NCBI RefSeq assembly: GCF_900637655.1
Contig: NZ_LR134384.1
Span: forward strand, 1,798,001 to 1,862,000
DNA length: 64,000 bases
Direction of reading: 5' to 3'
Source of the DNA: Segatella oris
GTDB taxonomy: Bacteria > Bacteroidota > Bacteroidia > Bacteroidales > Bacteroidaceae
A model generated the notes under the pieces. It was not told the origin of the DNA, made no database searches, and saw only the letters and a program-made list of their open reading frames with translations. This document shows, piece after piece, positions 17 through 57,145 of this stretch. The number at the start of each line of letters is the position of its first letter. The stretch's first letter is position 1. Made by a program: the position numbers and the translations under genes.

Positions 17-256
17 TTTTTAACACCTGAGGGGCAGACCAAAAGGAAATAGAAAACCGTTTTCAATGTATGTGCAGAATAGTTTCATGCCCTTGATTTC
101 CTTGCTTTTATCGTCTTGGTTTGCAATGTCGGTCACTTCCTTTTGCCACTTGCGTCACTTTACCGCCTAAAGTGACTGAAAACACCATGCAACTTGACGC
201 AGATTACACGCTAACTTGACGCAGATTACAAGGCAACTTGACGCGACATACAAACC
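17..256 (+). repeat. Partial interspersed element with three 22-bp direct repeats
   Basis: This gene-free stretch begins with TTTTTAACACCT (17-28), the same motif that opens the better-preserved element copies near 5.4 and 62.5 kb. At 191, 213 and 235 it carries three copies of AACTTGACGC, the first two followed by AGATTACA, so the period is exactly 22 bp. A short inverted repeat, GTCACTTTA/TAAAGTGAC, lies at 154-176 without a T-run. The 3' half of the element is not recognisable here. I see no coding potential. Confidence 0.55.
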
Positions 257-19498: not shown

Positions 19499-19534
19499 CC
19501 CGAAAGTTATTTCGCCTAACTTTCGGGGTCTTTT
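19499..19534 (+). terminator. Terminator of maeB
   Basis: CCCGAAAGTTA (19499-19509) pairs perfectly with TAACTTTCGGG (19517-19527) over a 7-nt loop and runs into GTCTTTTCG. It also falls in the 41-bp register of the repeat array that follows, as if the array grew out of the terminator. Confidence 0.75.
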
Positions 19535-20190
19535 CGTCTTTCCGAGGATTGGGAAACGCAGCCAACGGCGTTTTTTGTTCTTCCCAAAGTTGGGAAAGCT
19601 GATTTTCGATGAATTCCTGTTTTCCCAAAGTTGGGAAAGCCAATTTCTGCTGAATTTTGAGTTTCCCAATGTTGGGAAAGACGTTTTTCGCTGATTTCTT
19701 GTTTTCCCCCATGAGGGAAAGACGATTTTCGCTGTTTTCTTGTTTTCCCCCGTGAGGGAAAGCCGATTTTCGATGATTTCTTGTTTTCCCCCATGAGGGA
19801 AAGACGATTTTCGATGATTCCTTGTTTTCCCCCGTGAGGGAAAGACGATTTTAATCGTTTTTTGATTTTCCCTCACGGGGGATAATCTGTTTTCGCCGAT
19901 TTTTATCCGTCGTACCCCTACGAAAGCCTCTTTCTCCCGTTTTTCGTTCATCGTACCCCTACGAAAGCCTCTTTTTTCCATTTTTCGTTCATCGTGCCCC
20001 GTATCTGGACAATTTTTCTCGAAAATCGACAATTTACTCCCGTATCTGGATTGATTTTCTTGAAAATTGATGATTTACTCCCGTATTTAGACAGATTTTT
20101 CTGAAAATCGACAATTTACTATCGTATCTGAGCAGATTTTACCGAAAACTGATGATTTACCCCTGTATCTGAATGGATTTCCCGAAAAAA
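19499..20190. repeat. 41-bp-period dyad array I (17 units)
   Basis: Units begin at 19499, 19540, 19581, 19622, 19663, 19704, 19745, 19786, 19827, 19868, 19909, 19950, 19991, 20032, 20073, 20114 and 20155, a strict 41-bp step. Block 1 has TTCCCAAAGTTGGGAAAG-type dyads. Block 2 has TTCCCCCATGAGGGAAAG types, the last unit being inverted. Block 3 has TCGTACCCCTACGAAAG. Block 4 has CCCGTATCTGGA with TTTTCTCGAAAA. Linkers are T-rich (GATTTTCGCTG, TTTTCTTGTT). Minus-strand reading frames through the array are by-products of the repeats: 41 is not a multiple of three. Confidence 0.92.
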
Positions 20191-47022: not shown

Positions 47023-48057
47023 ATGAAAGAAATCAAAGCACTCTGCCGTCAGAATATATGGAATTTACCTTCCTATACTGCTATTGAAAGCGAGCATTCA
47101 GAACAGCAGGACATGCTGCTCCTGAACGCAAATGAAAATCCGTATAACAAGCCATTCAACCGCTATCCCACTCCACAACAACAGGAACTCAAACTGTTGA
47201 TTTCATCCGTAAAAGGCGTTCCTGCTGCTAATATCTTTTTGAGCAATGGAAGCAATGAGGCTATCGACATGACTTTCCGCATCTTTTGCGAGCCTGGGGT
47301 CGACAATGTTGTTGCCATTTCTCCTACTTACGATATGTACAGACGATGTGCTGAACTCAATAATATTGATTATCATTCTGTCCTGCTTGACGAGCACTAC
47401 CAAACAACGGCCGACAACCTACTCGGTGCTTGCAATGAACACACTAAATTAATATGCATTTGTTCACCCAATAATCCTACGGGAAACACGATAGACCATA
47501 CCGTAATTAAACAAGTTCTCTATTCTTTCCAAGGCATTGTCATCATCGATGAAGCCTATATTGACTTTGCAAACAGCCCTTCATTCGTCAAGGAACTGGC
47601 GCAATATCCAAACCTCATAGTGCTCAACACGATGAGCCACGCCTGGGGATTAGCCGCTATCCGATTAGGCATGGTCTTTGCCGATAAGCCCATTATAGAT
47701 TTGTTCAATAAAGTTGCTATGCCCTACAACATAAACGCATTGACCCAACAGCAAGCTATTGAAGCACTGAAAGATCCTTTTGAAACCGCCAAACGGGTAA
47801 GTCTCATTCAACAAGAACGCGCGAGAATGCTGTCAGCTTTCCAGGCTCTTCCTTGCTGTAAAAAAGTCTATCCTACGGAAGCAAACTTCTTCTTGGCCCA
47901 GATGATTGATGCACAAGCCATATATGATTACTTGCTTCATCAAGGTATTGCAGTGCATAACTGCGCACACATTGAACATTGTGAAAACTGTCTCCGCATC
48001 ACTATCGGTACGAAAACAGAAAACCAAGCATTGCTGGCTGCATTGAGAAAACTATAG
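47023..48057 (+). CDS. Histidinol-phosphate aminotransferase-like protein lacking the PLP lysine
   Basis: A 344-residue fold-I PLP aminotransferase most like HisC, which makes histidinol phosphate from imidazole-acetol phosphate. Expected motifs are present: NANENP near residue 38, the SNGSNEAID phosphate loop, CSPNNPTG, DEAYIDF and RLGM. The position of the Schiff-base lysine reads NTMSHAWG: His206 (codon CAC at 47638-47640) replaces the Lys of the usual S-K-A-W/F. HisC without Lys should not transaminate normally. No other his genes are nearby. It could be an inactive paralogue, a divergent enzyme or a recent mutation. Confidence 0.85.
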   Translation: MKEIKALCRQNIWNLPSYTAIESEHSEQQDMLLLNANENPYNKPFNRYPTPQQQELKLLISSVKGVPAANIFLSNGSNEAIDMTFRIFCEPGVDNVVAISPTYDMYRRCAELNNIDYHSVLLDEHYQTTADNLLGACNEHTKLICICSPNNPTGNTIDHTVIKQVLYSFQGIVIIDEAYIDFANSPSFVKELAQYPNLIVLNTMSHAWGLAAIRLGMVFADKPIIDLFNKVAMPYNINALTQQQAIEALKDPFETAKRVSLIQQERARMLSAFQALPCCKKVYPTEANFFLAQMIDAQAIYDYLLHQGIAVHNCAHIEHCENCLRITIGTKTENQALLAALRKL

Positions 48058-48092
48058 ACACGTGAAGTCTGTTTAAGCATCAATCTTTCTGC

Positions 48093-49030
48093 TTTCCCGT
48101 AGGGCGAGAAAGACGTTTTGAGGCTGTTTTTGTGTTTCTCGTAGGGCGTTAAAGCCGTTTTGAGGCTGTTTTTGTGTTTCCCGTAGGGCGAGAAAGCCAT
48201 TTTGGGGGTGTTTTTGTGTTTCTCGTAGGGCGTTAAAGCCATTTTGAGGCTGTTTTTGCGTTTCCCGTAGGGCGAGAAAGTCGTTTTGAGGGTGTTTTTG
48301 CGTTTCTCGTAGGGTGAGAAAGCCGTTTTGAGGCTGTTTTTGCGTTTCCACGGGGTTGGAAATGTAATTCTCAGCGTTTTTTCAGTTTCGGCCGTGGCGG
48401 AAACGCAGTTTTTTTCATTTTTAAGCTTTCGGCCATGGCCGAAATGCAGTTTTCGCCGTTTTTCGTTTTTCGGCCGCAGCCGAAACGCTCTTTTTGCTGT
48501 TTTCTACTCTTCGGCCATGGCCGAAAGTCGATTTTCGCTGTTTTTTCAGTTTCGGCCGCGGCGGAAATACTGTTTTCACTGTTTTTTGCTCGTCCGCCGT
48601 GGCGGAAAGCCGATTTCCAACGTTTTCTCGCTTTCATCCACGGATGACGGGCATTTTTTTGCCTTTTTTTAGCTTTCATCCATGGATGACGAATGATTTT
48701 CAGCGTTTTTTCGCTTTCATCCACGGATAACGGGCATTTTTTGCCTCTTTTTCGTTTTCATCCACGGATGACGAATGATTTTCGGTAAATCCAGCATTTC
48801 GTCGACCGACGAAGAACGCTTTTCATCGTTTTTCGCATTTCGTCGGTCGACGATGAGCATTTTTCGCTGTTTTTCGCGTTTCGTCAACCGACGACGGGTG
48901 TTTTTTCGCGATTTTCGCATTTCGTCGACCGACGATGAGCATTTTCCAGCGATTTCAGTATTTCGTCGACCGACGACGAGCATTTTCCGCCATTTTTCGC
49001 GTTTCGTCGGCCGACGACAGGCTTCTCTTT
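48093..49030. repeat. 41-bp-period dyad array II (23 units)
   Basis: Units begin at 48093, 48135, 48177, 48219, 48261, 48303, 48345, 48386, 48427, 48468, 48509, 48550, 48591, 48632, 48674, 48715, 48756, 48797, 48838, 48879, 48920, 48961 and 49002: steps of 42 bp in the first block and 41 almost throughout thereafter. Core blocks are CCGTAGGGCGAG (6 units), CCACGGGGTTGG (1), CGGCCATGGCCG and variants (6), CATCCATGGATG (4) and CGTCGACCGACG (6). Linkers share GAAAGNCGNTTTTNNNGCTG and T-rich ends with array I. Frames on either strand are repeat by-products. Confidence 0.93.
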
Positions 49031-49274: not shown

Positions 49275-50840
49275 ATGAGTAAGCAAGTAGAAAAAATCAA
49301 GCAGCTTATTGCAAAACGCGAAGAGGCACGCCTTGGCGGTGGTCAGAAAGCTATCGACAAGCAGCACGAACGTGGTAAATACACTGCGCGCGAACGTATC
49401 GAAATGTTAGTTGATGAAGGCAGTTTCGAAGAATATGATATGTTCAAACTGCACCGTTGCCACAACTTCGGCATGGAAAAGAAGCAATTCTTAGGAGATG
49501 GTGTTGTTGCTGGTTCTGCAACCGTCAATGGTCGCTTGGTTTATCTTTATGCACAGGATTTTACAGTCAATGGCGGTTCATTGTCTGAAACAATGGCGCA
49601 GAAAATCTGTAAAGTCATGGACATGGCAATGAAGATGGGAGCGCCCGTTATCGGCATGAATGACTCTGGTGGTGCACGAATTCAAGAAGGAATTTCTGCA
49701 TTGGCAGGCTTTGGTGAAATCTTCGAACGCAATATTCTTGCCAGCGGTGTAATCCCTCAGATCAGTGCAATCATGGGGCCATGCGCCGGTGGTGCTGTAT
49801 ATTCTCCGGCACTGACCGACTTCACAATCATGACAGAAGGAACTTCTTACATGTTCCTGACAGGGCCGAAGGTTGTTAAAACTGTTACGGGAGAAGAGAT
49901 CGATGCCGAGCACTTAGGTGGTGCAAGCGTTCATGCAAGCAAGAGTGGTGTTACACATTTCACGGCAAAGACCGAAGAAGAGTGCATGGAACTCATCAAG
50001 ACACTCCTCTCTTACATCCCTTCCAACAACACCGAAAATGCTCCTCGTGTTGAGTGCGACGACCCTATCGACCGCAAGGAAGACCTGCTCAACGAAATTA
50101 TTCCGGAGGATCCCAACCAGGCATATGATATGTATAAGGTCATCAGCGCTGTTGTTGACAACGGAGAATTCTTCGAAATTCAGCCTAAGTTTGCCAAGAA
50201 TATCATCACGGGCTTTGCGCGTTTCAACGGCCAGAGCGTTGGCATTGTTGCCAACCAACCTGCAGCTTATGCCGGTGTTCTTGACGTTAATGCCAGCCGC
50301 AAGGGTGCACGCTTCGTACGCTTCTGCGATGCTTTCAACATTCCAATCGTCAGTTTGGTAGACGTTCCGGGCTTCCTGCCGGGTACGGGACAGGAATATA
50401 ACGCTGTCATTCTGCATGGAGCACAGTTGCTCTACGCTTATGGTGAAGCCACCGTTCCAAAGATTACAATCAATCTCCGCAAGAGCTATGGCGGTTCACA
50501 CATTGTGATGGGCTGCAAACAACTCCGTTCCGACCTCAACTTCGCATGGCCATCAGCCGAGATTGCAGTAATGGGTGCAAGCGGCGCCGTAGCAATTCTC
50601 TGCGGTAAGGAAGCGAAGAAAATCAAAGAAGAAGGTGGTGATGTCAAGGCATTCCTTGCTGAAAAGGAGGAAGATTACACCGAGACTTTTGCCAATCCAT
50701 ATCAGGCTGCCCAGTATGGTTATATTGATGATGTCATCGAACCACGTAATACGCGCTTCCGCATTTGTCGTGGTCTGGCTCAACTCGCAACCAAGCGCCA
50801 GAATATTCCTGCCAAGAAGCATGCCTGCATGCCCATGTAA
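49275..50840 (+). CDS. mmdA: Acyl-CoA carboxylase/decarboxylase carboxyltransferase subunit
   Basis: A 521-residue carboxyltransferase of the PccB/MmdA type, acting on propionyl-/methylmalonyl-CoA. Both crotonase-like halves are present: GARIQEGISALAGFGEIF and GPCAGGAVYSPALTDF (first oxyanion hole), then VDVPGFLPGTGQEY and GASGAVAIL (second half). Together with the 49-residue protein and the biotin carrier downstream it resembles methylmalonyl-CoA decarboxylase, which in propionate-forming Bacteroidetes couples decarboxylation to sodium export. No membrane beta subunit or biotin carboxylase is in the window, so carboxylase and decarboxylase roles cannot be separated. Confidence 0.92.
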   Translation: MSKQVEKIKQLIAKREEARLGGGQKAIDKQHERGKYTARERIEMLVDEGSFEEYDMFKLHRCHNFGMEKKQFLGDGVVAGSATVNGRLVYLYAQDFTVNGGSLSETMAQKICKVMDMAMKMGAPVIGMNDSGGARIQEGISALAGFGEIFERNILASGVIPQISAIMGPCAGGAVYSPALTDFTIMTEGTSYMFLTGPKVVKTVTGEEIDAEHLGGASVHASKSGVTHFTAKTEEECMELIKTLLSYIPSNNTENAPRVECDDPIDRKEDLLNEIIPEDPNQAYDMYKVISAVVDNGEFFEIQPKFAKNIITGFARFNGQSVGIVANQPAAYAGVLDVNASRKGARFVRFCDAFNIPIVSLVDVPGFLPGTGQEYNAVILHGAQLLYAYGEATVPKITINLRKSYGGSHIVMGCKQLRSDLNFAWPSAEIAVMGASGAVAILCGKEAKKIKEEGGDVKAFLAEKEEDYTETFANPYQAAQYGYIDDVIEPRNTRFRICRGLAQLATKRQNIPAKKHACMPM

Positions 50841-56347: not shown

Positions 56348-57145
56348 ATGAAAAATCTATTCATTGCAATATGTTGTTTGGTGCCTGCTATAGGCATAGC
56401 ACAGACAGTTACGCCTATTCCTGCGAACAAAGTTGAAATCTTAAAGGCCGAAGCTGCAAGGAAAGCAGCAGAAGCAAAAAAGGCAGCTGAAGAAGCAAAG
56501 CGTGCTGCTGAAGAAGCCTTGAAAGCAGCAGAAGAGGCAGAACAGGCCACACAAGCAACACAACAACAGAAAGACAGTTGGACGATACCCCAACAAACCA
56601 AGCAGCAATCTCAACCTGTTGTCTCCAAGACTACTAATCCTTACGAGGGTTATTTAGCTGGTGCTGTGCCTGAACAAGATGGGAAAGTAACTTTTGAACT
56701 CAGGAAGACTGCCACCAACATGAACGCATCTGAAATTTACAAACGCGTTTACAATGTTCTCAACAACTTAGCTCATGATGAACATCAGGCCGGGAACAGT
56801 CGCATAGCGTTGGTTAACGAAGCTGAGCATATGATTGCAGCAAAATATGAAGAATGGTTGGTTTTCTCTCAAAATCTGCTTTCTTTAGACCGTACTAAAT
56901 TCAACTACACGATTGTTGCCAAGTGTCAGAACGGACAATTGGAACTGACTTTAAGTCGCATCAACTACAATTATGAAGAGGATAGGCCTTCAGGTTTCAA
57001 GGCCACAGCAGAAAATCTGATTGCTGACAGAGTAGCTCTTACCAAGAAAGGCACAAAGCTACAGCGCATGAATGCTAAGTTCAGAATGAAGACGGTAGAC
57101 CGAGTGAATGAGATTTTCAACGAGATAAAACAAGCACTCAAATAA
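56348..57145 (+). CDS. Secreted DUF4468 protein with Ala-rich helix
   Basis: A 265-residue exported protein: signal peptide to about residue 19 (VPAIGIAQ), then a striking helical Ala/Lys/Glu stretch (residues 33-75, repeated KAAEEAKRAAEEALKAAEEA type), a Gln-rich linker and a DUF4468 domain (EGYLAGAVPEQDGKVTFELR; MIAAKYEEWLVFSQN). DUF4468 is a TBP-like-fold family in Bacteroidetes of unknown function. A -7 box (TAATTTTG, 56318-56325) precedes it. The helix could form a single-alpha-helix or coiled-coil spacer to the cell envelope. Confidence 0.8.
   Translation: MKNLFIAICCLVPAIGIAQTVTPIPANKVEILKAEAARKAAEAKKAAEEAKRAAEEALKAAEEAEQATQATQQQKDSWTIPQQTKQQSQPVVSKTTNPYEGYLAGAVPEQDGKVTFELRKTATNMNASEIYKRVYNVLNNLAHDEHQAGNSRIALVNEAEHMIAAKYEEWLVFSQNLLSLDRTKFNYTIVAKCQNGQLELTLSRINYNYEEDRPSGFKATAENLIADRVALTKKGTKLQRMNAKFRMKTVDRVNEIFNEIKQALK

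Follow-up and report, generated by a model that had tools for sequence, protein, structure and literature searches.

A palindrome array of fixed period

The window analysed here is a stretch of 64,000 nucleotides of Segatella oris DNA (positions 1798001–1862000 of contig NZ_LR134384.1, assembly GCF_900637655.1, a one-contig genome of 3.17 Mb). Between two genes of the forward strand it holds a single tandem array of 23 palindromic units at positions 48086–49018, six of 42 bp followed by 17 of 41 bp, as seen in the sequence, with Tandem Repeats Finder (TRF) and in a scan of base matches at fixed lags. The locus is made up as follows (window coordinates):

47023–48057, + strand: upstream neighbour, an open reading frame (ORF) of 344 aa, named HisC-like in the initial annotation (ORF list; relatives by tblastn)
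48062–48078 (genome 1846062–1846078), + strand: end resembling a terminal inverted repeat (TIR), GTGAAGTCTGTTTAAGC (consensus GTGAATTCNGTTTAAGC), at the sense-side border of the array (pattern search of the own genome)
48086–48349, + strand: first block, six 42-bp units with the weak dyad TTTCYCGTAGGGYGAGAAA (TRF period 42, 6.3 copies, 86% matches; sequence)
48344–48384, + strand: lone 41-bp unit with core CCACGGGGTTGG (dyad tracking, centre 48353)
48385–48630, + strand: six 41-bp units with cores CGGCCRYGGCCG and close variants, the last being CCGCCGTGGCGG (centres 48394–48599; TRF)
48631–48795, + strand: four units with core CATCCRYGGATG (centres 48640–48764)
48796–49020, + strand: six units with core CGTCGRCCGACG (centres 48805–49010)
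49275–50840, + strand: downstream neighbour, an ORF of 521 aa, named carboxyltransferase-like in the same annotation (ORF list)

The stop codon of the upstream ORF ends 28 nt before the first unit. Unit number, step and position between the two ORFs are as the initial annotation had described them, and so is the common T-rich pattern of the linker, whose T-tracts hold fixed places while the core blocks change along the array. Dyad tracking, with a score penalty for steps other than 41, followed 17 units (centres 48353–49010) and gave a step of 41 in 15/16 cases and of 42 in 1/16. Bases one period apart match at 0.82 for lag 42 and 0.70 for lag 41, and these peaks stand against whole-window means of 0.28 and 0.26. 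The block-wise cores CGGCCATGGCCG, CATCCATGGATG and CGTCGACCGACG are present as claimed; the first block carries not CCGTAGGG but the weaker TTTCYCGTAGGGYGAGAAA, which the dyad scorer did not follow, and the unit with core CCACGGGGTTGG after it had been missed. Two short tandem repeats of 22 bp and 21 bp at window positions 189–244 and 56470–56517 (TRF) are apparently unrelated to the arrays.

The same design occurs elsewhere in the genome. BLAST gave 16 matching stretches in the S. oris genome (G000), and with a covariance model built on two units (R1) 115 matches were obtained, spread over 16 places. As the R1 scan scored 150 of 1098 first-look candidates, 16 arrays is a lower bound. All 16 places were inspected at the sequence level, and one of them has just two units. 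An assembly artefact is thus unlikely, since the design recurs at these places and in other genomes, where the step is also held; and as 41 is not a multiple of 3, the array is not a decayed coding repeat. The window itself contains a second array, with other cores in the same register:

19499–19527, + strand: terminator-like inverted repeat CCCGAAAGTT...AACTTTCGGG at the border of the second array (sequence; similar border at locus L098)
19541–20190, + strand: second array, cores CCCAANNTTGGG, CCCYCRYGAGGG and CGTACCCCTACG, then 41-bp CCCGTATCTG units (TRF, lag scan, dyad tracking of 11 units)

The S. oris arrays draw on a limited common set of cores, CGGCCRYGGCCG, CGTCGRCCGACG, CATCCRYGGATG, CCAAGGGGTTGG, CGTACCCCTACG, CCCAANNTTGGG, CCCYCRYGAGGG, CCGAGGNCTCGG, CGCTYRNRAGCG, CGGGRNNYCCCG and their relatives, together with the 41-bp CCCGTATCTG unit; each place has its own mixture of these, though their order is often alike. 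With genes called by ORF length alone, 10 of the 16 arrays lie between genes read along the A-rich strand, 4 between convergent genes, none between divergent genes and 2 in reversed orientation, one of the latter resting on a 91-aa ORF. At 1505k (L097), CCCGTATCTG-type 41-bp units stand amid ordinary dyad blocks in a changed order, and at 1900k (L099) the first units have the opposite T/A sense. A minimal element with a TIR-like end and two tracked units is found at 2269.9k (L148, positions 1900–2000), flanked by two ORFs that by eye look like glycosyltransferases.

Symmetry and spacing are held more firmly than the bases. In 68 two-unit rows from 12 S. oris arrays, 83.1% of the stem cells are paired (shuffled, 64.1%), with a covariation score of 0.486 (shuffled, 0.153). 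All six registers slid by 1–3 columns score lower (covariation at most 0.173), with rows and centres placed by a dyad score that favours the unslid register. All four Watson-Crick pair types are used at two inner-arm positions; the pairs changed on both sides (9) and the pair types (28) show no excess over shuffles in these rows. Over 42 arrays from nine genomes the step is 41 in 268 of 294 cases, 42 in 16, 40 in nine and 44 in one, as counted by a tracker whose score is lowered by departures from 41, and the 336 units of these arrays contain 149 distinct 12-bp cores.

The dyads would form hairpins if transcribed, and each of the 16 S. oris arrays borders on one or more gene 3′ ends, as would suit elements in 5′ or 3′ untranslated regions that act on RNA stability, termination or translation. 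However, the non-pairing cells at stem positions 3–6 of the 42 arrays (27 G-T, 23 A-C and 38 other) show no clear wobble bias on either strand. As such a bias would be expected of a selected RNA hairpin, the symmetry points to action at the DNA level. The arrays also occur in either sense beside genes, have no Rfam match above the gathering score, and are spaced by helical turns, which is not an RNA feature; we therefore regard an RNA-level role as very unlikely.

DUF6261 genes and the 41/42-bp period

Within the genus, R1 arrays were found in 9 of 299 genomes (9/131 high-quality genomes), and within the order in 2 of 393, S. oris being included in each count and stricter filters being applied in both surveys. 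In five array-bearing relatives, the gene just outside an array belongs to the family DUF6261 (PF19775). Fragments counted, this family has 3 matches in genome G012, 2 in G076, 11 in G091, 9 in G137, 19 in G162, 10 in G183 and 31 in G223, and it is present in 60 of the 299 genus genomes and 45 of the 393 order genomes. DUF6261 was found neither in G061 nor in S. oris, where it was searched for twice, the second time without a positive control of its own.

The region upstream of a DUF6261 gene is usually repetitive, with a tandem match of at least 0.6 at the best lag among 25–70 taken as the criterion. In a first set of 59 loci, 48 of the 57 usable upstream regions repeat, 40 at lag 41 and 8 at lag 42, with no other lag represented. 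Downstream of the same 59 genes 4/59 regions repeat, none at 41 or 42, and upstream of 78 control genes (HisC relatives) no region does (0/78). The set was enlarged to 166 loci, which are part of all DUF6261 matches and include three (L185, L189 and L194) first chosen for their arrays. Here 135 upstream regions were usable, 25 loci having no 5′ end and 6 too little upstream DNA; L229 and L231 were left out as too short, and L221, without a repeat (0.45 at its best lag), is counted in the 135. Repeats were seen in 117 of these, at lags 41 (73 loci), 42 (39), 43 (3), 40 (1) and 62 (1), compared with 1/79 control regions (lag 35) under the same settings.

Nineteen genera contribute to the 112 loci with lag 41 or 42, and 82 of these loci belong to the genus of the window, a count that includes a P. 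nigrescens locus by assumption. Their unit sequences are mostly unrelated between DUF6261 genes, and clear dyads (arms of at least 5 bp, at least 85% paired) occur in 56 of 116 arrays and in 3 of 116 after permuting the unit columns; with consensus units and a cruder test, 14/49 reached p ≤ 0.05. The 41/42-bp period is thus a property of DUF6261 loci, and a step of four helical turns persists over many genera while the letters turn over. These 112 of 135 upstream regions strongly support the proposal of the initial annotation that geometry is kept over bases, which points to a partner contacting all dyads from the same side of the DNA. We found no description of the association between arrays and DUF6261 in the literature searched, most subscription papers lying outside that search.

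In all 49 DUF6261 loci measured the array lies immediately 5′ of the gene, 0–300 nt from the ATG, and the sense strand is A-rich in 37 of 49 arrays. Both features, as well as the same A-rich orientation to the downstream gene in 10 of 12 tandemly placed S. oris arrays (p = 0.04), would fit a regulatory minisatellite, in which a phased array read by a general host factor tunes or switches DUF6261 expression through its copy number. Such a role leaves unexplained why paralogs have cores of their own and why the coding N-terminus tracks the dyad core (see below), and arrays also lie between convergent genes (4/16 in S. oris), so that we consider it unlikely.

Some loci of this set deserve separate mention. 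In P. nigrescens (L272, NZ_CP082843.1, WP_004367630.1) the annotated DUF6261 start at locus position 2839 falls inside the 41-bp array (2839–2979), and relatives and leader suggest the in-frame ATG at position 2977 (MANESKV...) as the start. At locus L248 a strong 41-bp array (0.97) upstream of the gene is accompanied by a 28-bp tandem repeat (0.91) on the downstream side, no more than 1 kb away. The protein of the gene upstream of the array frequently starts, by eye, like a lipoprotein (CANDDT and similar), as at L185, L186 and L187 (G137), L190 (G223) and L199 (G061); none of these five genes has a Pfam match. Metagenome-assembled genomes of Treponema also contain DUF6261 proteins (P0134, P0136, P0171 and others) with some 59% identity to the search query, which suggests transfer between phyla or a binning error.

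DUF6261 N-termini and their dyads

DUF6261 proteins begin with a hypervariable decapeptide (MEIKQLHKQL, MELKSFKRGQ, MTLQTIYYSR and others) followed by the motif LxNMEHxQF, and the net charge of the N-terminus is positive in 36/36 proteins. Judged from these N-termini, they are predicted to have no signal peptide. Paralogs within a genome can be about 90% identical from a nearly constant junction, at around codon 10 in G223 and codon 18 in G137, as far as roughly the stop codon or past it; upstream of this junction array, leader and first codons are unrelated. For seven G223 genes (21 pairs), two of which have their first codons in common, mean identity is 30% at −60 to −30, 43% at −30 to 0, 64% over codons 1–5, 44% over codons 6–10, 99% over codons 11–20 and 92–94% beyond. 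A near-constant junction between unrelated 5′ modules and similar bodies could also arise if array and first codons together formed a recombination module that exchanges the 5′ ends of paralogs, in the manner of a shufflon or integron. As plain gene conversion of the bodies would give an equal picture, we give such a cassette platform hardly any credence.

Similar N-termini go with similar dyads. KTI(R/Q)KDR or KTLQKDR is found with TCGG-type dyads in four genes (G091, G137, G223), xLSR with CGTA-type dyads in three (G076, G137, G012), and xLTS or xLSS with CCGA-type dyads in four (G076, G183, G223). The G137 paralogs L185 and L186, which have nearly the same body, combine KTIRKDR with CGGCACCTGCCG and KEMNLSR with CGTACCCCTACG, respectively. 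L185 (2545–2600) also has an in-frame TAG after MEHY with its array intact, and this paralog is apparently on the way out.

Within one DUF6261 subfamily, similarity of the last six N-terminal residues correlates across genomes with similarity of the automatically extracted dyad core (r = 0.293, p = 0.0005; 27 of 36 genes, 296 pairs). For the same 27 genes neither body against core (r = 0.109, p = 0.10) nor N-terminus against linker (r = 0.102, p = 0.10) is significant; with pairs from the same genome included, body against core gives r = 0.180 (p = 0.0175). This test drops the near-identical second copies L288 and L409 and the weak dyads L290, L332, L334, L411, L415, L419 and L422. A second measure without any dyad call, the best shared repeated GC-rich 12-mer, again correlates with the N-terminus (r = 0.204, p = 0.0012; 29 of 36 genes, 349 pairs) and not with the body (r = 0.006, p = 0.46). 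Here L288, L408 and L409 were dropped, as were L186, L291, L415 and L416, which have fewer than two repeated GC-rich 12-mers.

In a post hoc comparison of 21 N-termini and half-sites, restricted to genes with a clean dyad, Arg before the LxN motif goes with G next to TC (8/9 vs 1/12), and Leu two places before that Arg position goes with A at the inner arm (8/8 vs 1/12). The Fisher values for these pairs (0.0004 and 0.00007) are uncorrected for relatedness and descriptive only. The AlphaFold2 model of DUF6261 is all-helical (pLDDT 87, pTM 0.60) with no informative relative in the PDB, and the predicted fold speaks neither for nor against DNA binding. One member of the family is called a hemagglutinin in a UniRef entry, and HagB and HagC of Porphyromonas gingivalis are presumably also members.

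A self-binding interpretation and the putative orphan arrays

From linkage, period, dyads, module boundary and co-variation we infer, with a probability of roughly 60%, that DUF6261 proteins bind their own arrays through an N-terminal arm that reads the half-site, and that the window array is an orphan member of this family. In Bacteroidales, a DUF6261 gene is usually preceded by a tandem array whose 41–42-bp units span four helical turns and often contain one dyad each, placing every dyad on the same side of the helix. One DUF6261 dimer may sit on each dyad and read the half-site with a basic arm some 10 residues long; adjacent dimers may touch through their helical bodies along one face, which would fix the 41/42-bp step and leave the sequence free. 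Arm and array would form a specificity module, kept or swapped apart from the conserved body, so that the paralogs of one genome would have different addresses. Such binding would probably build an ordered patch of nucleoprotein where the protein's own gene begins, serving autoregulation or local chromosome organisation. Self-binding of this kind would account for the fixed step, the symmetry, the free linker, the co-variation of decapeptide and dyad, and a private array for each paralog.

The effect linking N-terminus and core is modest and carried by a few strong groups, and the simplest version of the residue-to-base pattern is violated by L329 and L417. The S. oris arrays are tidy, with 816 of 875 stem cells paired though no DUF6261 gene was found, which self-binding does not explain; recent loss of DUF6261 or another reader would account for it.

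In S. oris the DUF6261 genes have apparently gone, and the arrays would have stayed behind between genes, as mixtures of cores from several former specificities. At the arrays at 1297k and 1635k the sense end runs into a start codon and MEIRTIQK(D/G)R before other DNA follows, apparently the remnant of a DUF6261 start. The core CGGGGCATCCCG is among those of the two arrays and occurs with MRMKTIQKDR in G091. Such remnants are present at 2/16 S. oris arrays, and neither window array has one. The window core CATCCRYGGATG also precedes a DUF6261 gene with the N-terminus MELKSFKRGQ in a relative (L285), and the S. oris cores that match DUF6261-linked ones in relatives are CATCCATGGATG (L285), CCGAGGCCTCGG (L284, L334), CGTACCCCTACG (L186), CCCAANNTTGGG (L152), CGCTTGCAAGCG (L189), CCAACCCCTTGG (L417) and CCCGTATCTGAG (L290). 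For the CGGCC and CGTCG blocks of the window array, no match was found to a relative's DUF6261 array with its own N-terminus. Because no DUF6261 gene was found in S. oris, start remnants exist at two arrays and cores match DUF6261 arrays of relatives, the window arrays are best read, on these sequence comparisons, as orphans that are partly mosaics of several former specificities.

TIR-like GTGAATTCNGTTTAAGC ends are seen at 8 of 16 S. oris arrays (flank table, by eye), in three of them with both ends within two mismatches; they were not seen at the inspected array borders of relatives, which were not pattern-searched. By eye these ends resemble those of MITE239, a miniature inverted-repeat transposable element (MITE), as listed in PMC4596501, and some S. 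oris arrays were therefore probably moved by a transposase. The TIR-like ends, the similar P. gingivalis elements of that paper and the block order common to several arrays would also suit functionless minisatellites borne by non-autonomous insertion sequences (IS) or MITEs and spread by TIRs and recombination, with a merely inherited period. Yet neutral repeats should drift in length, whereas sequences near random similarity keep a period of 41/42 here, and the dyads stay symmetrical through changes in both arms, though the nine such pairs are no excess over shuffles. Nor is a full-length IS with these TIRs evident: 5/16 matches of the TIR pattern lie outside arrays, against 9 matches of a control pattern, the transposases themselves not being searched for. 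We hold this explanation to be improbable.

The earlier interpretation needs amending in two respects. The array does not stand alone, since the genome holds at least 16 of them and they form part of a gene-linked family, and tandem repeats of 41 nt are described within MITE464/PgRS of P. gingivalis (PMC4596501). Period 41 thus has a precedent in print in this order, and the earlier interpretation as a whole is partly supported. According to that paper, MITE464/PgRS and BrickBuilt are likewise multi-copy tandem minisatellites of Bacteroidales; the PgRS repeat is 41 nt long, the TIRs are of the IS5-family type, and BrickBuilt is found exclusively between genes. They differ in having one repeat sequence per family, and changing palindromes or a link to DUF6261 are not mentioned in the parts of PMC4596501 consulted.

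Members of the DUF6261-linked class can be described by a period of 41/42 with a dyad in each unit, which the window array shows, and by an adjacent DUF6261 gene, which was not found in S. oris. Several known systems share part of this design. Repetitive extragenic palindromic (REP) units, arranged as bacterial interspersed mosaic elements (BIMEs), conserve their sequence and in some genomes have a gene of their own type, the REP-associated tyrosine transposase (RAYT), beside them. Like these (and REPINs), the arrays studied here are extragenic palindromic mosaics next to a gene with its own repeat type. However, RAYTs are Y1 transposases and DUF6261 is another family, and the arrays here keep spacing and symmetry. 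Nor do the arrays, with their 149 distinct cores, have a conserved palindrome of the REP/BIME kind. The three Y1_Tnp matches of S. oris lie at 611k–669k, none beside an array (the nearest is at 428k), and Y1_Tnp is present in 7/11 genomes with arrays and 2/6 others.

Iteron-Rep systems and parS or centromere arrays likewise place a protein gene beside helically phased binding sites of its own, specific for each paralog. Here too there is one phased array per paralog, with presumed binding, but DUF6261 is chromosomal with up to 31 matches per genome (fragments counted), and no replication or partition family is among the Pfam matches of five DUF6261 proteins. Integron attC sites and CRISPR arrays are also tandem, partly palindromic and variable in sequence. 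They differ in that the arrays here have no cassettes or spacers and vary in the palindrome itself; constant repeats between unique spacers, as in CRISPR, are not seen, the dyad varying in blocks and the linker pattern being the more constant part.

More tentatively, and with somewhat less than even odds, DUF6261 may represent a new class of address proteins, in which a helical body carries a swappable basic peptide that reads a private palindrome array, with dozens of pairs per genome, a residue-to-base code and a four-turn ruler. The post hoc pairing of Arg just before the LxN motif with G, and of Leu two places earlier with A, would be an example of such a code. If self-binding is true, it would give a class of function to an order-wide family that reaches dozens of copies per genome and has one member named as a hemagglutinin, and it would account for intergenic repeats that seem to be junk. 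Should the co-variation stem from contact, the family would offer many natural, aligned pairs of peptide and half-site that would allow a recognition code to be deduced and directly tested. The arrays would also present a clear example of a structural constraint, that of four helical turns, outliving its own sequence.
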